From: Phycisphaerales bacterium
GTDB taxonomy: Bacteria > Planctomycetota > Phycisphaerae > Phycisphaerales > SM1A02
Assembly (NCBI GenBank): GCA_009691915.1
Contig: SIAD01000001.1
Location: 124,001-188,000, forward strand
Length of the DNA stretch: 64,000 bases
Direction of reading: 5' to 3'
Positions within the stretch are counted from its first letter, which is position 1, and each line of letters starts with the position of its first letter. The notes below the pieces were generated by a model that saw only the letters and a list, made by a program, of their open reading frames with translations, was not told where the DNA came from and searched no databases. Positions 29,170 through 41,219 of the stretch are shown in pieces. The translations under genes were made by a program, and so were the position numbers.

Positions 29170-31290
29170 GTGGCCGACCCGACTTCCGAAGCACCACTCG
29201 ATCTCAAGTCGCCGCTGGGAAACATCAACGGCGTCGGAGCGCGGACGGCCACGGCGCTGGCGCGTCTCGGTCTCCGCACAGTCGGTGATCTCCTGAAGCA
29301 TCTTCCGATTCGGTACGAAACTGAGATGCCAGAGGAAGCGGTCGCCGAAGCCACGCGCCGCACCTCACTCGACGACACCGCAGTCACACGAACTGTCCGC
29401 GGGGAAATCCTCAAGATTCGAGTGGTGCCGGGGCGGCGACCTCGTCTCGAGGCACTCCTCAGCGACGAGAGCGGCACGATCCGCCTCGTCTGGTTCAACT
29501 CGTCGTGGCTTGCCCGCAAGATTCATCCGGGAATGCGGGGGCTTGCGCAGGGGCGAGCGAAGGTCCGTTCCGGGTACCTCGAGATGGTCAATCCGAAGTG
29601 GGAGGAGATCCAGGATCTCGAAGAGCCTCGGCCGACTTCCCTTCGGCTGAGGCCGATCTACTCGGCGTCGGAGGAGCTCTCGTCACCGACGATCGAGCGA
29701 ATCGTCGACGGAGTGCTTCCCGCGGCACTCGTCTCGATTATCGATCTCCTGCCGCCGGAGCTAGTCACGCGCCGGTCGCTTGTCACGCTTGGAGAGGCGT
29801 ACCGGATGGTTCACCGACCGGCCACTGCGGCGGATGCAGAGCGAGGGAGGTTGCGCCTCGCCTACGACGAGTTGCTGATGCTTCAGCTGGCGATGGCGAT
29901 GCGCCGCTGGCAGGTCCGCAACAGGATGCGCGCCGCAGAGCTGCCCGTCTCAGCGGCAATCCATGAGCGGATCACCGCACGGCTGCCATTCAGGTTGACA
30001 CCTGCCCAGTCGGCGGCGTGCGCCGAGATCAAAGCGGACATTGCGCGGGCGATCCCGATGAATCGACTCCTACAGGGAGATGTCGGCTCGGGGAAGACCG
30101 CCGTCAGCGTCTATGCGATGCTTGCGGCGGTTGCCCACGGACATCAAGCCGCGATCGTCGCGCCGACCGAGATTCTGGCGCAGCAGCATCTGGCGACCGT
30201 CGAGTCGATCCTCGCGGGGAGCAAGGTGCGGATCGCGGGATTCACGGGGGCGCTAAGGACCGCCGATCGAGCGATGGTCCTGGCCGGACTCGAGTCCGGA
30301 GGGTTCGACATCGTCATCGGCACCCACGCCCTGCTCTCCCATGAAGTCCGATTCAAGAGCCTCGCGGTCGCGGTGATCGATGAACAGCACCGGTTCGGGG
30401 TCGAGCAGCGCGCCGCCCTGCGTGGCAAGGGCGGAGTTGGTCTTACGGTGCCTCACACGCTGGTCATGACGGCCACGCCGATCCCGAGGACGCTGGCGCT
30501 GTCCTTCTTCGGAGATCTCGATATCAGCAGCCTCAAGGGGAGACTTCCCGGACGGTCTGCCCCCACTACTCGAGTCCTGCCCAGCGAGCGACGCGGTGAG
30601 GTCTACGAGTGGGTCCGCACGAAACTCGTTGCGGGCGAGCAGGCATTCATTGTGGTGCCGGCAATTGACGAGAGTGCCCGTGGGCTCGCTGATGTCTCCT
30701 CCCATGCGGAGTTTCTTGAGCGCGGACCCCTCGAGGGATTCCGCATCGGACGACTGCACGGTCAACTGAGTTCCCGCGAGCGTGAAGAGGTCATGGAGGC
30801 ATTCCGCTCTGGCTCGCTCGACGCGATGGTCGCGACGATCATGATCGAAGTCGGCCTTGACATTCCAAACGCGACGATGATGGTTGTTGAGCACGCCGAA
30901 CAGTTCGGCCTCTCGCAGCTCCACCAGCTGCGGGGGCGTGTCGGACGGGGCGGAAAGCCTGGGGAGTGTGTCTTCCTGGGGGATCCCACCACCGAGGTCG
31001 CCACGACACGGCTCAACGCGCTCGCACGGACGAGCGACGGCTTCGAGATTTCGGAGCTCGACCTTTCGCTGCGCGGGCCTGGCGAGTTCTTCGGCTCGCG
31101 CCAGTCGGGGCTCCCCGAGTTGCGCGTCGCTGACCTCGCGCGCGATCTCCCGCTCCTCATGGAAGCACGCGCTGATGCCGAGGCGTGGATCGGTCAATCG
31201 GGCGACCTCACGGCACTAAGCGATGCGCCGCTACGGAGGAAGGTGCTCGGGCTCTACGGCAATGCCCTCGGCATCAGCGACATCGGTTAG
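29170..31290 (+). CDS. recG: ATP-dependent DNA helicase RecG
   Basis: Remodels stalled forks and Holliday junctions. 706 aa, typical length. The wedge/OB-fold N-terminal part (INGVGARTATALARLG) is followed by the helicase motifs. These are GDVGSGKT (Walker A), APTEILAQQH (motif Ia), DEQHRFGVEQR (motif II with the RecG-type DEQH box), TATPIPRTLA (III), and in the second half VATIMIEVGLDIPNA and QLRGRVGRG (VI). The GTG at 29170 is supported by its -10 box. The stop TAG at 31288-31290 doubles as the first half of the next gene's -10. Confidence 0.97.
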   Translation: MADPTSEAPLDLKSPLGNINGVGARTATALARLGLRTVGDLLKHLPIRYETEMPEEAVAEATRRTSLDDTAVTRTVRGEILKIRVVPGRRPRLEALLSDESGTIRLVWFNSSWLARKIHPGMRGLAQGRAKVRSGYLEMVNPKWEEIQDLEEPRPTSLRLRPIYSASEELSSPTIERIVDGVLPAALVSIIDLLPPELVTRRSLVTLGEAYRMVHRPATAADAERGRLRLAYDELLMLQLAMAMRRWQVRNRMRAAELPVSAAIHERITARLPFRLTPAQSAACAEIKADIARAIPMNRLLQGDVGSGKTAVSVYAMLAAVAHGHQAAIVAPTEILAQQHLATVESILAGSKVRIAGFTGALRTADRAMVLAGLESGGFDIVIGTHALLSHEVRFKSLAVAVIDEQHRFGVEQRAALRGKGGVGLTVPHTLVMTATPIPRTLALSFFGDLDISSLKGRLPGRSAPTTRVLPSERRGEVYEWVRTKLVAGEQAFIVVPAIDESARGLADVSSHAEFLERGPLEGFRIGRLHGQLSSREREEVMEAFRSGSLDAMVATIMIEVGLDIPNATMMVVEHAEQFGLSQLHQLRGRVGRGGKPGECVFLGDPTTEVATTRLNALARTSDGFEISELDLSLRGPGEFFGSRQSGLPELRVADLARDLPLLMEARADAEAWIGQSGDLTALSDAPLRRKVLGLYGNALGISDIG

Positions 31291-31293
31291 GCT
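31288..31293 (+). promoter_or_regulatory. -10 box of the ABC ATPase gene, overlapping the recG stop
   Basis: TAGGCT, beginning with the recG TAG stop, then 7 nt and the ATG at 31301. Confidence 0.5.
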
Positions 31294-31300
31294 TGGGTTC

Positions 31301-31999
31301 ATGCACGCGCCAAGCTTCGCATCGCCTTCTGGCGCGTCCGGCATCGAAATCCATGGGCTCGAGTTTGCCTATCCAAGCGGCTTCCGTCTAGTGGTCGATT
31401 CGCTGACTATCGCTCGTGGAGAACAGGTGCTTCTGGCGGGGAGTTCAGGCAGCGGCAAGTCGACGCTCCTACATCTGGCGGCAGGGATTGAGCGGTCTGT
31501 GCGCGGATCGGTCTTCATCGAAGGCACGGACATTCTGGCTCTTTCCGGAGCATCGAGGGACCTCTTTCGAGGTCGTCGCATCGGGATGATCTTCCAGACA
31601 TTCAACCTCCTTCACGGGTTCACGGCCATCGAAAATGTCATGATGCCGCTGATGCTCTCAGGGTTCAGCGCCTCGGAGCAGCGATCTCGCGCTCGTGATG
31701 CGCTCTCGCGACTGGGGATCGAGCGCCACGAGGCGAGCGTCGATGCACTCAGCGTCGGCCAGCAGCAACGGGTCGCTGTAGCCCGGGCGATTGCCGGGGG
31801 CCCCGCGGTCGTCCTTGCCGACGAACCGACCGCCAGTCTTGATGCCGTGAATGCCTCGGCCGCGATCGACCTCATCAAGGAGGCAGCGCACAACGCAGGT
31901 GCGTCGCTCATCCTCACGAGCCACGATCCCGCCATGCGCAGCCGCTTCGAGCGAGTCGTTGATGTGAGCCGGTACGCGAGCAGCGGAGCGACTCGATGA
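31301..31999 (+). CDS. ABC transporter ATP-binding protein (LolD/MacB-type)
   Basis: 232 aa from the ATG at 31301; an earlier in-frame start lies inside recG. Walker A AGSSGSGKST, Q-loop IFQTFNLL, Walker B VVLADEPTASLD and switch His in TSHD are intact. The signature reads LSVGQQQRVAVARA, with Val in place of the usual first Gly of LSGGQ. The P-loop and the ATVENV-like region (FTAIENVMMPL) place it with LolD/MacB/FtsE proteins that pair with FtsX-type permeases, and the next gene is one (ATGA overlap). Confidence 0.92.
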   Translation: MHAPSFASPSGASGIEIHGLEFAYPSGFRLVVDSLTIARGEQVLLAGSSGSGKSTLLHLAAGIERSVRGSVFIEGTDILALSGASRDLFRGRRIGMIFQTFNLLHGFTAIENVMMPLMLSGFSASEQRSRARDALSRLGIERHEASVDALSVGQQQRVAVARAIAGGPAVVLADEPTASLDAVNASAAIDLIKEAAHNAGASLILTSHDPAMRSRFERVVDVSRYASSGATR

Positions 32000-33306
32000 A
32001 TGACATGAGGATCGTCATCAGGAGCCTGCGGGAACGATCGCTCGCAAGCACGGTGACCGTCGGCATGGTTGCCGTTGCGGTGGCGCTGCTGCTCGTACTG
32101 CTCTCGATGAGGCAGGCGGCGTCCGACGCGTTCCGGCGCGGAACCGGCAATGTCCATCTCCTGGTCAGCGCCGACGCGAGTCCGCTGGTCGCGGTGCTCA
32201 ACGGACTCTTCTACGCCAACGCCCCCGCCAATCCGATCACCTACGCCAAGTTCAGCGAGATTCGTGACAGCTTCCCATGGCTGTGGGCGATCCCAACGCA
32301 ACTTGGAGACTCCTACCGAGGGAGTCCGGTTCTGGCCGCGCCCAACTCGTTCCTCGCGGACTTCGAGCCATCGGCGGGACAGCCGTTCGCCTTCGCCAGG
32401 GGTCGGGCAGTCGCCAAGGAGTTCGAGGTCGTGGCGGGGAGCGTCGCGGCTAGCGAGCATGGGCTCGAGATCGGCCAGAGAATTGCCATGACCCACGGGG
32501 CTGGTGCCGCCAGCGTCGGCGGCCATGAGCACACGGATCATCCCTATGAAGTTGTGGGAATCCTGGCGTCGACCGGCTCCGCCCACGACCGTGCGCTCTT
32601 CACAAACCTTGAGAGTTCATGGATCATCCACGCCGAAGATCGGCGCGAGCGCGCCGCGCCCGAGGAACACGACGGGGCCCACCACCGCGGCCATGACCAT
32701 GAACATGAGCATGTCGATGCAGCGGACCTGACCGACGAGGACCGGCTCGTGACGGGAATCCTTCTCAGGATCCCGACTCGTCCCGGCAGCGACGCGTCCG
32801 CGTCGCTCGCCTCGCAGTTCGACAGACTTCGGCGGGATACTTCGATCACGGTCGCCCAGCCTGCCCAGCAGATCGGTCGCCTCATGGCGATTGTCGGTGA
32901 CATCGACTGGCTCTTTATCGCGATGGGTGTGGTCGTCCTCGCGTCCAGTGCGCTCAGCATCCTTCTCGCGATGATCTCATCGATGGAACTGCGGCGACGA
33001 CAAGTGGCGATTCTCCGGGTGCTCGGCGCGAGTGCCTGGCGGGTCTTCGCGCTTGCGGTCACGGAGAGCACAGCGATCGGGATCGCGGGTGCGGTCGCTG
33101 GATGCGCGATCGCTATCGTGGGGTGCTCGCTGGCAAGCACAATGCTCGAGGGCAGGATTGGAATCTCACTCTCTAGCGGAGTCGATCCGAGGAGCTGCGC
33201 CGAGGTTGCCATCGGAGCGGTGGTTCTCTGCGCATTTGCGGGGGTGATCCCTGCGGTGAAGGCCTACCGAACCACCATTGCGGATCATCTGCGGCCGATC
33301 GCATAG
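31996..33306 (+). CDS. FtsX/MacB-type ABC permease with histidine-rich periplasmic loop
   Basis: 436 aa. One N-terminal membrane helix, a large extracytoplasmic domain, then three C-terminal helices, as in the FtsX/LolE/MacB group. The periplasmic domain carries a metal-binding-like run at about 212-239 (His/Asp/Glu rich: HDGAHHRGHDHEHEH). Two more His clusters lie earlier (HEHTDH near 177-182). This suggests zinc or similar metal sensing or handling. Partner of the preceding ATPase (ATGA overlap) and of the DUF3299-like gene that follows. The set resembles the zinc-regulated zrg ABC loci of gammaproteobacteria; that link is inference. Confidence 0.88.
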   Translation: MNDMRIVIRSLRERSLASTVTVGMVAVAVALLLVLLSMRQAASDAFRRGTGNVHLLVSADASPLVAVLNGLFYANAPANPITYAKFSEIRDSFPWLWAIPTQLGDSYRGSPVLAAPNSFLADFEPSAGQPFAFARGRAVAKEFEVVAGSVAASEHGLEIGQRIAMTHGAGAASVGGHEHTDHPYEVVGILASTGSAHDRALFTNLESSWIIHAEDRRERAAPEEHDGAHHRGHDHEHEHVDAADLTDEDRLVTGILLRIPTRPGSDASASLASQFDRLRRDTSITVAQPAQQIGRLMAIVGDIDWLFIAMGVVVLASSALSILLAMISSMELRRRQVAILRVLGASAWRVFALAVTESTAIGIAGAVAGCAIAIVGCSLASTMLEGRIGISLSSGVDPRSCAEVAIGAVVLCAFAGVIPAVKAYRTTIADHLRPIA

Positions 33307-33325: not shown

Positions 33326-34060
33326 GTGCGCGCCTTCTGGACCACCATCCTGATCCTTGCCGCAGCCGGGATCGCCGTCCTCCTTGCTACTCGGGGGACC
33401 GAGACTCCGACCCCGGTCGTTGCCGATGCTCCGTGCGCCGTGCCATCCAATGGCGCGCAAGCGACGCCGCCGCAGAGTATGGAGATGCCGAGCGGTGCAG
33501 CCACGGTTGTTGCGCCTCCTGTCGAGAGTCCGCCCACCGGCGCGTCGCTCGCCCTGGGACTCAACGAGACGATTCCCGGGGCCTCCGTGCGCCCCGGCAC
33601 ACTCGTCATGAAGGGCGGGGAAATCTTTGCCGACGGAAAGTTCTCGATCCGTGGCCATGGAACCAAGGAGTCCCCATACGACATCTCCTGGGATCTCCTC
33701 ATGAGTGCTTCGGACACATTCATTCCGAGGCTCGGCGAAAAGCAGATTCCCCAGCGCATTGCTCTCCTCAACAACGCGCATGTGAGGGTCTCGGGATTTA
33801 TCGCGTTTCCGCTGGTTGCGACCGAGGCCAGTGAATGCCTCGTGATGCTCAATCAATGGGACGGCTGTTGCATCGGTGTCCCTCCGTCTCCCTACGACGC
33901 GGTTGAGGTCAAACTGATACTCCCCGCAGACAACTCGCGGCGGCACCTGGTCCGCGTCGGGACCATCGATGGAGTCTTCCACATCGACCCCTATGTCGTC
34001 GAGCGCTGGCTCGTCGGCCTGTACACCATGGATTCTGCCACGCTCTCGACGGAGATGTGA
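33326..34060 (+). CDS. DUF3299-like periplasmic membrane-anchored protein
   Basis: 244 aa. An N-terminal membrane helix (about 5-22), a low-complexity Pro/Thr-rich linker (to ~75), then a domain with NNAHVRVSGFIAFP and, at 173-195, LVMLNQWDGCCIGVPPSPYDAVEV (given in pieces: NQWDG, CCIGVPPSP, YDAVEV). The Cys-Cys (181-182) and the PP-x-P motif resemble DUF3299 proteins, which are often found beside FtsX-type ABC genes. Function unknown. The GTG at 33326 is the only usable start after an in-frame stop at 33317. Confidence 0.8.
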   Translation: MRAFWTTILILAAAGIAVLLATRGTETPTPVVADAPCAVPSNGAQATPPQSMEMPSGAATVVAPPVESPPTGASLALGLNETIPGASVRPGTLVMKGGEIFADGKFSIRGHGTKESPYDISWDLLMSASDTFIPRLGEKQIPQRIALLNNAHVRVSGFIAFPLVATEASECLVMLNQWDGCCIGVPPSPYDAVEVKLILPADNSRRHLVRVGTIDGVFHIDPYVVERWLVGLYTMDSATLSTEM

Positions 34061-34063
34061 CTC

Positions 34064-35749
34064 ATGATGACCACGCTGCTCCTGGCCCTCTCGCTCACTC
34101 AGGCTGCGCCGACTCCCGCAGCAGCCCTCGAGTCGATGCGCGCGATCGTCGCCTCGGATCCGGCGCGCTGCGCCATCAGAAAGATCGGGTCGTCGTGGTC
34201 GGGCGCGCCGATCGAGGTGTTAGTGATTTCGGAGAACGCCGCGACGGCCGACGAGCGCCCTGCGGTCCTCGTCGTCGCGGGGATCGACGCGGAGCGGCCT
34301 TCTTCCGTCGCAGTGGCGGTCGAGGCGGCGCGCAAACTTCTCGCTACACCGGAGGAACTGAAGGGGCGCACCTACTACATCGTCCCCTGCGCGAATCCGG
34401 ATGCGCTGCTGGACACGGCGAAACGCGCTCCAGCCAACAGCGCCCGCAATGGACGCGCCGTCGACGAGGACCGCGACCGAAGAGCCGACGAGGATCCGCC
34501 GCGCGACATCGACGGCGACGGGCGCATCCTCGTGATGCGGCGGATTTCGCCCGGTGCCGATGATCCGCCGACTCACCTGCCTGATCCAGCCGACCCGCGG
34601 CTGATGCGCTCGCCCGACGCAGCCAAGGATCTGCGCGCCACTCACTCGATGTCCATCGAGGGGCTCGACTCCGACGGCGACGGGCTCGTCGCCGAGGATG
34701 CCATCGGAGGTGTCGATTTCGATCGCAACTTTCCCCATCGTTGGAAGGAGTTCGACCCCTCCGCCGGGGCCTATCCACTGAGTGAACCTGAGACGATGGC
34801 TCTCGCACGGTTCGTGATCGATCATCCGCGAATCGTGGCCGCGGTCGTGGCCTCCCGGTGGGACAACATGGTTGTGATGCCCGACTCCAAGGCGAAGGAC
34901 ATCACCGGCAAGTCCCCGATGACGCTCCACGGCGACGATCAGCCGTTGTGGGAGGAACTCGGGCGAATCTGGAAGGAACGATCAGGGCAGACACGAGCGC
35001 AGGAGTGGGATCCATCGGGATCGCTGGCGCTCTGGCTCTATGTTCACCGCGGCATTCCGACCTGTGCGACGCAACTCTGGGGTCGACCAGATCCATCACC
35101 GCTTCCGCCGCCACCCGTACCCGCAGCACCAGAGTCCGCGCCACCCGTACCTGCACCACCCGCGCCTCCCAAGGCTGCCGACGAGGAGTCTCTCCAGTGG
35201 CTCCTTGTCAGCGACCGCGACCAAGGCGGTCGCGGATTTGTCCCATGGGCGCCGTTTGATCACCCGACACTTGGGAAGGTTGAGATAGGCGGATTCGCGC
35301 CAGGATTCCGCACCGACCCTCCGGCATCCGAGATCGACCGACTCGCCAAGGCGCTAGCCGGGATCGCCTCGACCCTCGCAAACCGGCGACCACGCTGCGA
35401 GTTCGCCAATGTCTCAGCGCGACAAGTCACACCCGGACTTATCGAGATCGAATGCGAAGTCGTCAACACCGGATGGCTCCCGACAGCGACCGCCATGGGC
35501 CGGATGAACAAGACGCCGCCGCCGATCGTTGTGCGCATCTCCGCTCCCAAGGAGTGCCTCGAGAGCGGCCGGCGAGTGACCATCATCGACGGTCTCGCCG
35601 GTGCCGGTGGGCGACAGAGATTCAAGTGGCTCGTCCGCGCGCAACCCGGAGAACGCCTCGTCATTGAGTCTCGTTGGAAGCCACAGGGAACGACGCGGGT
35701 GTCAATCATTGACGGCGCGGTTCAGCCCACGATGGAGGTAGTGCCATGA
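34064..35749 (+). CDS. M14 carboxypeptidase-like protein lacking all catalytic residues
   Basis: 561 aa, secreted (signal near residues 1-17). Paralog of the next gene. It keeps the M14 scaffold, including the Asp-Arg-Asn stretch DFDRNFP (about 218-224) and two Asp-rich calcium-type loops (DEDRDRRADED; DSDGDGLVAED). By alignment with the neighbour, however, the zinc ligands His101 and Glu104 become Asp75 and Arg78. The third His303 is replaced by Trp near 266, and the catalytic Glu376 becomes Gln337 (CATQLW). It is therefore probably a binding protein or a regulator of the active paralog. A proline/alanine repeat linker (about 344-372) and a beta-rich C-terminal domain follow. Confidence 0.85.
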   Translation: MMTTLLLALSLTQAAPTPAAALESMRAIVASDPARCAIRKIGSSWSGAPIEVLVISENAATADERPAVLVVAGIDAERPSSVAVAVEAARKLLATPEELKGRTYYIVPCANPDALLDTAKRAPANSARNGRAVDEDRDRRADEDPPRDIDGDGRILVMRRISPGADDPPTHLPDPADPRLMRSPDAAKDLRATHSMSIEGLDSDGDGLVAEDAIGGVDFDRNFPHRWKEFDPSAGAYPLSEPETMALARFVIDHPRIVAAVVASRWDNMVVMPDSKAKDITGKSPMTLHGDDQPLWEELGRIWKERSGQTRAQEWDPSGSLALWLYVHRGIPTCATQLWGRPDPSPLPPPPVPAAPESAPPVPAPPAPPKAADEESLQWLLVSDRDQGGRGFVPWAPFDHPTLGKVEIGGFAPGFRTDPPASEIDRLAKALAGIASTLANRRPRCEFANVSARQVTPGLIEIECEVVNTGWLPTATAMGRMNKTPPPIVVRISAPKECLESGRRVTIIDGLAGAGGRQRFKWLVRAQPGERLVIESRWKPQGTTRVSIIDGAVQPTMEVVP

Positions 35750-37509
35750 AGCGGAGTGTGTTCCGATTCGCGTTCGTCGCCTTTGCCGTGATGGCGGCGG
35801 CAACGCCAGCGTCCTACGCCCAGCAGCGACTACCGGGCAAGGTGGACATCGCGTGGAACCGCTTCTACGACTATGAGGAGATTGTGGGGATGGCGCGCTC
35901 TCTCGTCGGCGCGTATCCGAACCTCCTCTCGCTCGAAGAGGTTGGTAAGTCGGCACAGGGGCGACCTATGCTGGTCATCACACTCAACAACCCAGCGACC
36001 GGAGCGGCGGCGACCAAACCCGCGATGTGGATCGACGGGAACATCCACGGCAACGAGATCCAGGCCAGTGAGACGGTCATGTATTCGATCGACTATCTCT
36101 GTCGCGGCTATGGGGTCGTTCCCGCGCTGACTTCCCTCATCGACGAGTGCGCCTTCTACTTCGGTCCGTCACTCAATCCGGACGGACGGGCCAACTGGTT
36201 CCGGAACCAGAACAATCCCCACTCCTCTCGGACGGGGATGGTTCCGACCGACGATGACCGCGACGGAACGGCCGACGAAGACGGCCCTGACGATCTCGAC
36301 TCCGACGGATCGATCGGTCACATGTGGCGCAAGGATCCCAACGGAACCCATCGGCGCAATCCGCGCGACCCCAGAATCCTCGAGCCGGTCCCGACGGAAC
36401 CGCGGCCGGACGGAACCATCGAGCGCGGCGAGTGGTCGCGCGCCGGTTCCGAGGGAATCGACAACGACGGCGACGGGATGATCAACGAGGATGGCCCCGG
36501 TGGATACGACATGAATCGCAACTGGCCGGGCGACTGGCAGCCCGAGTATGTCCAGGGCGGTGCCGGCGATTATCCCCTCTGCTATCCCGAGACGAAGTGC
36601 ATCGCTGACTGGGTGCTCAAGCATCCCAATATCGCCGCCGGACAGAGCTACCACAACGCGGGGGGAATGATTCTGCGCGGACCCGGTGCGGACTACCGTG
36701 AACCGATCTACGACCGTTCAGACATCGCCGTGTACGACTCGATCTCGCAGGTCGGGGCCGAAATGCTCCCCTTCTACCGCCCGATGGTCGTGTACAAGGA
36801 TCTGTATACGGTCCATGGAGGGTCGATCGACTGGATTGCCGAGTCGCTTGGCATCATCAGCTTTACCAACGAACTCTGGTCTGACAAGAGAGTCCTTCAG
36901 AGCGGTGCCGAGCCGGATCCGGAGCAGGAGCTTCGTTGGCGCGATCGCATGCTCTTCGGGCAGACGATGTCCGATTGGCGCGAACTCACTCATCCCGAAT
37001 ACGGCACGATCCTCGTGGGCGGCGGCACGAAGTGGTCGAGCCGGATTCCCCCGAACTTCATGCTCGAGGAGGAGGCGCACCGCAACTTCGCCTTCACCAT
37101 GTTTCACGCGCAGCAGATGCCCAGTCTCAGGTTCCAGTCTGTGCGTGTCAAGCCGATGGGGACTGATCTCTGGGAAGTGACGGTCGAAGTGAACAATCAG
37201 CGGCGCATTCCGACGCGGACCGCCCGCGCGACAGCGATGAAGATCGGCCTTCCGGATGTGCTGTCTCTGACGGGTGTCGCCGCGGAAGTGGTCGCCGCAG
37301 GACGGTTGCAGAACCGCCACGCCACCGCGTTCGAGCCCGTACGGAAGAACCCGCAGTCGCTGCAGTTGGACGGCGGGATTCCCGGCCTCGGAACCGAATC
37401 GTTCCGTTTCATGGTTCACGGGAAGGCAAACGCCCAGCTGCGTCTTCGTCTTGAAGGGGAGAAGTTCAAGGCGATCGAGCAGATCGTGACGCTCACGCCT
37501 ACGCCGTGA
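35746..37509 (+). CDS. Secreted M14-family zinc carboxypeptidase
   Basis: 587 aa with a signal peptide (cleavage near ASYAQ, 22-26). Zinc ligands are His101 and Glu104 in DGNIHGNE and His303 in SYHNAGG. Arg258 is in YDMNRNWP for carboxylate binding, and catalytic Glu376 is in FTNELW. Asp-rich calcium-type loops (TDDDRDGTADEDG, DNDGDGMINEDG) are inserted between the ligands. A beta-sandwich C-terminal domain (about 470-587) follows. It should remove C-terminal residues from extracellular or periplasmic peptides. The start overlaps the stop of its inactive paralog (ATGA). Confidence 0.92.
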   Translation: MKRSVFRFAFVAFAVMAAATPASYAQQRLPGKVDIAWNRFYDYEEIVGMARSLVGAYPNLLSLEEVGKSAQGRPMLVITLNNPATGAAATKPAMWIDGNIHGNEIQASETVMYSIDYLCRGYGVVPALTSLIDECAFYFGPSLNPDGRANWFRNQNNPHSSRTGMVPTDDDRDGTADEDGPDDLDSDGSIGHMWRKDPNGTHRRNPRDPRILEPVPTEPRPDGTIERGEWSRAGSEGIDNDGDGMINEDGPGGYDMNRNWPGDWQPEYVQGGAGDYPLCYPETKCIADWVLKHPNIAAGQSYHNAGGMILRGPGADYREPIYDRSDIAVYDSISQVGAEMLPFYRPMVVYKDLYTVHGGSIDWIAESLGIISFTNELWSDKRVLQSGAEPDPEQELRWRDRMLFGQTMSDWRELTHPEYGTILVGGGTKWSSRIPPNFMLEEEAHRNFAFTMFHAQQMPSLRFQSVRVKPMGTDLWEVTVEVNNQRRIPTRTARATAMKIGLPDVLSLTGVAAEVVAAGRLQNRHATAFEPVRKNPQSLQLDGGIPGLGTESFRFMVHGKANAQLRLRLEGEKFKAIEQIVTLTPTP

Positions 37510-39563: not shown

Positions 39564-41219
39564 TCATGGGGGTGGCTGCGCGTCACCACACTGGCACGGT
39601 CCCCAGTGGCCGATGCAGTAGGACATGTCGAGGCCATCGACCACGAGGTTGCCGTCGTAGTCGGCGACGAAGTCGTCGGGAGCCGTGCCACCCCAGTGAG
39701 AGAAGAACTTGGCGAGGTCCAGACCGTCGACGACGCCATCTCCAGTCAGATCCCACGCGCAGCCGATCGTGTCGATCGGGTAGGAGAACGCCGCTCCCTG
39801 CTGGGGCCCACTGGGACCCGGCGCGCGTGGCGCCGAGATCAATATCTCTGCGACCCCGACTCGAATCGCCGTTCCGAAACTTGCGTCCGGCGTCGAGGCA
39901 GTCGACGGTGGCGCGTACTCGGTGTTCTGGGTCCAGGTCGCGCAGGTCGCTGCGTCGGTGGAGTAGATGTAGACGCTGCCCCGACTGGGAACCTGGCTAG
40001 TGCCGGATCCGACATCGACGCCCGGCGCTCCGACGGCCGCTCGATCGCTCCAGATTCCGGCGGACGCGCCGAAGAGATCACCGCTCTGCGCATCGGACGC
40101 GACTAGCGAAGCCTCCCACTCATACTGCTCGGACAGTAGATCCCTGGCGTAGATGTACGCCGCCCCGGCGTTTGGCATCGAGGCGACCTTACGATTCGGT
40201 GCCCCGATAATCAGCCTTCCCTGCTGCGCGTCGATCGAGGTGCCGAACTGGTCGTAGCTCTCGGGCGCCACCGCAACAATTCGCTGAGTCAGTGTCCACT
40301 CGCCCCACACTGGGTCGCTGGCCAGTGTGACTGGGGCGGGATCCGCCTCTGAGGAGCGGCGAAAGACATACACGGCACCCTGACTGGCCGTCACGGGGCT
40401 GGCGCGCTTCGCACCCACGAGGAGATACTTCCCCTCCATGCGAACCGATGTCCCGAAGAGCGCCCCGGCCGTCGAGAGTGCGGTCTCACCCAGGAGAACT
40501 GGCATCTCAATGTTGGCCTTCAAGGTCCAGACCCCCGCCTCAAACTCCCAGATAGTGACTGATCCGCTGTCGATGCGCGAGCCTCCGGTGGGGATTGGAA
40601 TGTCGTCCGTCGCGGCGCCAATGGCGAGAGTGTGGCGCGAAGTGCCATCACCGAACACCTCGCGCTGGACGCTGAGCGCAGCCCCGAAGAGGTCGTTCGA
40701 CCTCGGGTTAGGATGGGCCAGAAAGACTGGTGATCCCCAGGATCCGGATTCCCAACGCCAGGCGAAGACTCCGCCCGCCTGGAGCTGGTTCGGCAGAGGC
40801 AGTGCTTCGACAATGATGTCGACCCCGGGCGCGCCTGCTACCACCATGTCGCTAACCATGTCGACGGCTGTGCCAGTGAAGTCGTTGGCATGCCCCAAGA
40901 GCACCACGAGATTCGTTTCCAGGATGTAGCCGTCTCCGCCACGGCGGTACACCGCGGCCGAGCCCTGGGCATTGTGCGTCACTCCATCAAGTGTGAATGG
41001 CCGCTGCGGAGATCCCACGAGAACCTTGTCCTCGTGGAAGGCGATCGACGCGCCAAAGCGGTCGTCCGCGCCGCCGCCGCTCGGGGGGACGAACACGAAC
41101 GACGGATCAGGGGATTGTCCCGCCTGCGCGCGCACCACGGAGACAGCAGCAAGCGCGATCATCACGACTGCGGACCCGACGCCGATGGTGGAACCTCTCT
41201 GTGTCAGCAAACCATGCAC
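39564..41219 (-). CDS. Secreted FG-GAP-like beta-propeller protein with C-terminal dockerin-like repeats
   Basis: 551 aa. An N-terminal signal peptide (hydrophobic core about 13-30) starts from the GTG at 41219. About seven FG-GAP/integrin-type repeats follow, each with a pattern like DRFGASIAF...VLVGSP or DLFGASAGIWSDRAAVGAPGV (given in pieces). The last ~60 aa have two copies of a calcium-loop motif: TGDGVVDGLDLAKFFSHWG and DGNLVVDGLDMSYCIGHWG. Such C-terminal repeats are frequent on surface or secreted proteins of Phycisphaerae and resemble dockerin type I. A role in attachment or matrix building is plausible but not proven. The N-terminal Cys-rich-free propeller looks non-enzymatic. Confidence 0.88.
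   Translation of the reverse strand: MHGLLTQRGSTIGVGSAVVMIALAAVSVVRAQAGQSPDPSFVFVPPSGGGADDRFGASIAFHEDKVLVGSPQRPFTLDGVTHNAQGSAAVYRRGGDGYILETNLVVLLGHANDFTGTAVDMVSDMVVAGAPGVDIIVEALPLPNQLQAGGVFAWRWESGSWGSPVFLAHPNPRSNDLFGAALSVQREVFGDGTSRHTLAIGAATDDIPIPTGGSRIDSGSVTIWEFEAGVWTLKANIEMPVLLGETALSTAGALFGTSVRMEGKYLLVGAKRASPVTASQGAVYVFRRSSEADPAPVTLASDPVWGEWTLTQRIVAVAPESYDQFGTSIDAQQGRLIIGAPNRKVASMPNAGAAYIYARDLLSEQYEWEASLVASDAQSGDLFGASAGIWSDRAAVGAPGVDVGSGTSQVPSRGSVYIYSTDAATCATWTQNTEYAPPSTASTPDASFGTAIRVGVAEILISAPRAPGPSGPQQGAAFSYPIDTIGCAWDLTGDGVVDGLDLAKFFSHWGGTAPDDFVADYDGNLVVDGLDMSYCIGHWGPCQCGDAQPPP

Follow-up and report, generated by a model that had tools for sequence, protein, structure and literature searches.

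The window analyzed here is a 64,000-nucleotide stretch of DNA from a Phycisphaerales bacterium (GTDB lineage Bacteria; Planctomycetota; Phycisphaerae; Phycisphaerales; SM1A02), covering positions 124,001 to 188,000 of the forward strand of contig SIAD01000001.1 (NCBI GenBank assembly GCA_009691915.1). It contains two overlapping genes for paralogs of the M14 peptidase family, which we call A and B. Protein A has lost the zinc and catalytic residues of the family, whereas B retains them. The two genes are inherited together in a fixed order, A is under purifying selection, and in one genome the pair is naturally fused. On balance, we favor a reading in which A and B would form a secreted two-subunit carboxypeptidase, with A as the non-catalytic subunit dedicated to B. 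The genes are laid out as follows.

34064..35749, + strand: protein A, 561 aa, apparently secreted, a putative pseudopeptidase of M14 fold, the C-terminal domain of which is rich in strands
35746..37509, + strand: protein B, 587 aa, apparently secreted, a predicted zinc carboxypeptidase of the M14 family; its active-site residues are intact, and its C-terminal domain can be aligned with the one in A
35746..35749, + strand: ATGA overlap between the stop of A and the start of B, read from the sequence

The Pfam family Peptidase_M14 (PF00246) matches A at 66.4 bits and B at 148.4 bits (cut-off 21.6), in B from residue 49 onwards. It was the sole Pfam family reported for either protein at E 0.01, with no match to an M16 profile, and A and B are the only M14 matches in the 2.27 Mb genome (E 0.001). 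Each protein starts with a signal-peptide-like hydrophobic stretch. Frame coordinates, overlap and Pfam matches all agree with an initial description of the locus made from the letters of the DNA (the sequence-only reading), which had proposed secreted tandem M14 paralogs coupled by ATGA.

The active-site residues of B are His101, Glu104, Asn257, Arg258, His303, Tyr354 and Glu376, and the same columns of A hold Asp75, Arg78, Asp220, Arg221, Ser264 (or a gap), Trp315 and Gln337. We take these columns to be equivalent to positions 69, 72, 145, 196, 248 and 270 of carboxypeptidase A, with Tyr354 of B presumably standing at position 248. All of these positions except 248 are tabulated in PMC11266112. 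The altered sites of A are listed below.

34286..34297, + strand: former HxxE zinc motif of A, now Asp75-Ala-Glu-Arg78 (joint and profile-profile alignments)
34853..34864, + strand: former site of the third zinc ligand of A, Ser264 to Asp267 (column counts; Asp267 is an A-type conserved residue)
35072..35074, + strand: Gln337 of A, where the catalytic Glu stood (joint and profile-profile alignments; Glu in 0 of 120 A rows)

In a joint alignment of 206 sequences (rows), His303 of B faces Ser264 of A. A profile-profile alignment of A and B alignments built separately (45 rows each) places it against a one-residue gap adjoining Ser264, and rules out that the lost residues are a chance product of alignment. 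The sequence-only reading had given B His101, Glu104, His303 and Glu376, all of which are found at those numbers, and had paired them with Asp75, Arg78, Trp266 and Gln337 of A. Asp75, Arg78 and Gln337 align as claimed, but Trp266 lies two positions past the His303 column, at a place where the commonest residue in relatives is His (42 of 103 rows). The broader claim, that all four catalytic positions are replaced in A, survives this correction, as neither alignment method recovers a zinc site. The His residues of A, at 171, 194, 225, 254, 289, 328 and 400, are not close to the third zinc-ligand site in sequence, so that the description of A as lacking the zinc triad stands. A frameshift or sequencing error in A was rejected because its frame is open and the replacements recur in relatives.

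For counts of the His-Glu-His-Glu tetrad, rows were assigned to A or B by hidden Markov model (HMM) score; 78 rows had first been labelled by their active-site residues, and trees and HMM scores concur. Gaps in the four columns excluded 13 of 133 A rows and 1 of 132 B rows, and rows do not equal genomes, since a split A and the fusion add extra ones. The tetrad is complete in 131 of 131 B rows. In 120 A rows no gap falls in the four columns; 104 of these share no residue with the tetrad, 12 share one and 4 share two, while the zinc triad is never present and neither is the catalytic Glu (0 of 120 for each). Nine of the 16 partly matching rows come from three families (f28, f30 and f35) and seven from elsewhere in the sample, a pattern that fits a stepwise loss of the active site. 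Five divergent A proteins (L187, L190, L191, L192 and L194) still have the His or Glu of the tetrad at one or two positions and are possible loss intermediates. The Tyr354 column contains Tyr in 131 of 131 B rows versus 0 of 124 A rows; the position of Arg258, by comparison, stays Arg in the A of the window (Arg221) and in 89 of 127 A rows. With its HxxE...H motif and catalytic Glu, B is probably an active zinc carboxypeptidase. A lacks this combination of residues yet still matches the M14 profile and fold, and is presumed to be an inactive M14 pseudopeptidase.

The former zinc site of A has acquired a character of its own. Across the 120 rows, position 75 is acidic in 91, position 78 basic in 95 and position 267 acidic in 107, with all three together in 72. 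Column 264 is Gly in 102 of 127 A rows. At column 267, 104 of 123 A rows have Asp, whereas 126 of 131 B rows have Gly. These recurrent charges would suit an A that is not dead but carries a rebuilt metal site, or some other activity, based on Asp75, His78, His266 and Asp267. We consider this very improbable, as the four residues occur together in only 27 of 120 A rows, the A of the window itself has Arg78 and Trp266, and the general base Glu is missing from every one of the 120.

Outside the pocket, two acidic loops of A are strongly conserved.

34463..34522, + strand: residues 134-153 of A, the first of the acidic loop regions of calcium type, with near-invariant Asp columns
34658..34699, + strand: residues 199-212 of A, the second of the acidic loops, with near-invariant Asp/Glu columns

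Asp136, Asp138, Asp148, Glu211 and Asp212 are invariant in 126 of 126 A rows and Asp202 in 125 of 125; Asp134, Glu199, Asp204 and Asp206 are each present in 125 of 126. Judging by their motif, these loops would be suited to bind calcium. As the sequence-only reading had stated, both the scaffold motif DFDRNFP and the calcium-type loops are kept in A.

Structures of both proteins were predicted with AlphaFold2 from five-row alignments (A, B, the A and B of L034, and the single M14 of L035). The mean predicted local distance difference test (pLDDT) score was 62 for A and 60 for B, and the acidic-loop region scored mostly below 50. With VIA-align, the A model superposed on carboxypeptidases T and A4 with Z up to 22.2 (3prt: root-mean-square deviation (rmsd) 3.3, 254 aligned), and the B model on TAFIa and carboxypeptidase B with Z up to 25.0 (3lms_A: rmsd 3.5, 262 aligned). 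Plain Foldseek returned M14 matches with poor superposition. The predicted scaffold of A is thus the M14 fold, although this match is not independent of homology, because B sat in its alignment. Given pLDDT scores of about 60, five-row alignments and loops mostly below 50, we make no claim about pocket geometry.

To follow the pair among relatives, A was searched in 101 genomes (the genome of the window and its relatives) and B in a wider sample of 392 genomes, taken to span the same phylum; the B-first search was added as a check that did not start from A, as the first locus sets had been picked through A. A was matched in 67 of the 101 genomes, two of them marginally (E about 4e-4). In the other 65, A lies directly before B in 61, including the window and one fusion, three loci are cut by contig ends (G017, G028 and G056), and one has a gene in between (G029). 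The B search matched 98 genomes at E 1e-40 or better, of which 82 reached 360 bits or more (strong B). A is directly upstream in 81 of these 82, partly cut by a contig end in some; in the remaining genome (G199), A and B lie at the ends of different contigs. In G102 (L126), B is in two pieces, each below 360 bits, and A still precedes it. The B search places the pair in 31 families. The A-only loci aside from the second tandems described below (L070, L099, L148, L156, L206, L220 and L222) are all at contig ends, and no A-type gene was found in the 16 stretches fetched around distant single M14 genes (L196-L205 and L223-L228). A contig scan for exact peptide patterns matched two relatives, a number that does not measure distribution. 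The inactive paralog is therefore kept beside the active one in relatives, and the absence of the pair that the sequence-only reading had named as grounds for doubt is not what we find.

Wherever both genes are separate open reading frames, they share a strand and A comes first (127 of 127 loci), so that inactive and active paralogs make up a conserved two-gene unit. The distance from the stop of A to the estimated start of B has a median of 6 bases and a maximum of 609, the latter at the split A of L178. Frame sorting had set down four loci as BA from overlapping stop-to-stop frames, and had scored the fusion as B. An order this constant would also be expected if A were a folding helper or inhibitor, made first to hold new B in the periplasm and then released, much as a prodomain serves the digestive carboxypeptidases; in B itself, the M14 match starts so near the N-terminus that scant space is left for a prodomain. 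We regard this as quite unlikely, as A has the full size of an M14 protein and almost unchanging acidic loops, beyond the needs of an inhibitor, and the fusion leaves A and B joined.

In a FastTree phylogeny of 203 rows (3 of the 206 were dropped) rooted on the single M14 of L035, all 101 A rows formed one clade (support 1.0) and all 101 B rows another (0.996). A tree of 286 rows, enlarged by pairs of greater divergence and by 17 M14 genes that stand alone, gave 0.79 for the B clade (131 rows) and 0.88 for the A clade (128 rows); five extra A-type genes nest inside the A clade. An old split between A and B is thus supported, yet the two may not be mutual closest relatives, since 3 of the 17 single genes branch on the side of A, although their support is mixed.

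Averaged over 96 genomes, identity is lower among the A proteins (0.35) than among the B proteins (0.50). The ratio of nonsynonymous to synonymous substitution rates (dN/dS) of A is 0.12-0.21 in seven of the eight closest pairs (the eighth was not computed), which places A under purifying selection; that of B is 0.06-0.12 in six pairs and 0.41 in one (L048-L050). These values, together with the near-invariant loops, fit the proposal of the sequence-only reading that A is kept for a non-catalytic role. They also bear on whether A could be a decaying duplicate heading for loss, an account to which we give almost no weight. A evolves faster than B in six of seven close pairs and is split across two frames in G210 (L178:2401-4084), by a frameshift or an assembly error. 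As a general account, decay nevertheless fits poorly with the low dN/dS of A, its near-invariant loops and its retention beside B in nearly all strong-B genomes.

The identity matrices of A and B correlate at 0.85, a value reached by 0 of 1000 permutations, which shared ancestry alone could produce. Among seven genes shared by 17 loci, none of the 21 gene pairs has a higher distance correlation than A-B (raw 0.976, partial 0.65). This result is suggestive only.

In G033 (L037:3444-7208), A and then B are read in one 1255-aa frame within the same gene neighborhood as in the window. The segment before B reaches a maximum mean hydropathy of only 0.17 (no hydrophobic stretch), compared with 2.57 at the start of A, while values of 1.6 or more precede B in 128 of 132 B rows. 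Since both the stop and the second signal stretch have been lost, a sequencing slip is argued against.

At least five genomes of one family (G380, G412, G434, G437 and G462), all of which also have the A-B pair, carry a second tandem, in which an A-type gene is followed by a degenerate M14-like gene.

L215:2416-5444, second tandem
L216:1928-5355, second tandem
L217:1987-5882, second tandem
L218:2694-6136, second tandem
L219:1820-5190, second tandem

The first gene of these tandems scores 321-351 bits with the A HMM and 133-167 with the B HMM, and lies inside the A clade. The second is more degenerate, has also lost the catalytic residues, scores 77-162 bits with either HMM and belongs to a clade of its own. 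Such tandems would be easier to understand if A were an independent binding protein that is secreted, for example a receptor for peptide C-termini or for a surface polymer, merely co-expressed with B. The Arg at 221, in the carboxypeptidase A Arg145 position, retained in most A rows, points the same way, as do the extracellular-matrix roles of some known M14 pseudopeptidases described in PMC11266112. We hold this to be unlikely, in view of the A-B fusion and of the contig-end position of all other A-only loci.

The reading of A as a subunit of B thus remains the one that we prefer. B would be the zinc enzyme half of a secreted two-subunit carboxypeptidase, and A an old paralog that gave up zinc and catalysis and was retained as a dedicated subunit binding B. 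A would either stabilize B or help hold the substrate, perhaps by means of its rebuilt pocket (acidic 75, basic 78 and Asp267) and the retained Arg221. The physical complex, the subunit role of A, the stoichiometry and the substrate are inferred. Several observations weigh against this reading. Co-inheritance and fusion are equally compatible with a shared pathway as with contact, and the faster evolution of A also counts against it. The partial correlation between the ABC and HI0933 genes (0.60) is just below that of A and B. In G029 (L067:3-4494), the contig opens with the tail of A, after which come a further gene, presumably a 6-phosphogluconate dehydrogenase judging by its motifs, and then B; this is the sole separated pair seen. 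Finally, having no active member, the second tandems indicate that A-type genes do not strictly need an active partner; they would favor pairing as such and weaken the notion that A exists solely to serve catalysis. A more specific version can be put forward only tentatively, and we hold it to be rather doubtful as a whole: a pseudo-subunit with a rebuilt pocket and a carboxylate-type Arg would hold on to the substrate, or to an anchor at the surface, as B does the cutting, M14 proteins would form obligate tandems in this phylum, and some second pairs, with both members dead, would act as pure binding complexes.

A and B belong to a co-directional gene run, in which an HI0933-like protein comes after B and the following three genes come before A.

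31223-31999, + strand: ABC ATPase (Pfam)
31996-33306, + strand: FtsX-type permease (Pfam), with a His-rich stretch
33326-34060, + strand: DUF3299-like protein (Pfam match below cut-off, 19.4 versus 22 bits)

The His-rich stretch of the permease (32668-32712) is likely a metal-binding loop. These three genes resemble two known sets, the Zur-regulated zrgC, zrgB and zrgE in Vibrio (PMC9817125) and PA4064-PA4066 in Pseudomonas (PMC11481552). Homologs of FtsX and DUF3299 occur in 23 of 66 loci of relatives and, among 80 later loci, in L165 only. Every one of these loci belongs to the same family as the window, and given this confinement among the loci examined we rejected the idea that zinc regulation explains the pair. 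No other flanking cluster recurred in more than 3 of 32 loci. Further downstream, on the minus strand (39564-41219), lies an FG-GAP repeat protein, the Asp-rich C-terminus of which is probably dockerin-like.

A close known parallel within the family is carboxypeptidase D (CPD, M14B), which combines active (I, II) and inactive (III) M14 domains in tandem, with zinc and catalytic residues replaced in one (PMC11266112); the best Protein Data Bank sequence match of B is domain II of CPD (gp180; 1h8l, E 7.7e-18). However, CPD is a single eukaryotic chain with the inactive domain last, whereas here two bacterial genes encode the inactive protein first, with acidic calcium-type loops, and CPD-III has Thr at the Arg145 position that is mostly Arg in A. 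AEBP1, CPXM1, CPXM2 and Ecm14 likewise share with A an M14 fold with replaced active-site residues, but are eukaryotic. Among the five pseudopeptidases tabulated in PMC11266112, CPD-III included, none has lost all of positions 69, 72, 196 and 270, in contrast to 104 of 120 A rows.

Two systems from other families show comparable arrangements, and the role proposed for A would resemble that of their alpha-MPP and Csd2 subunits. The alpha and beta subunits of mitochondrial processing peptidase (M16B) are inactive and active paralogs, with a prokaryotic two-gene operon and single-chain related enzymes (PMC11266112), but differ in family and fold, and their heterodimer is proven, whereas that of A and B is proposed. 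In Helicobacter pylori, zinc-bound active and metal-free degenerate M23B paralogs form the Csd1-Csd2 heterodimer (PMC5053510), although through helical domains, none of which was identified in A or B. The same paper notes for EnvC that the activation of amidases depends critically on the surroundings of its degenerate site (PMC5053510). Among the papers listed by literature searches, in some cases only part of those found (20 of 637, 12 of 209 and 12 of 44) and with few subscription papers in the collection, no title or abstract opening was on a bacterial active/inactive M14 gene pair.

The M14 pseudopeptidases listed in PMC11266112 are animal and yeast proteins, from vertebrates, Drosophila and yeast, and for several of them that review leaves the function open. 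The bacterial pair of a presumably dead and a predicted live M14 protein, present in 31 families, offers a simple two-gene system for asking what a live peptidase gains from a dead sister, and its 127 natural A-B loci are available for interface prediction.

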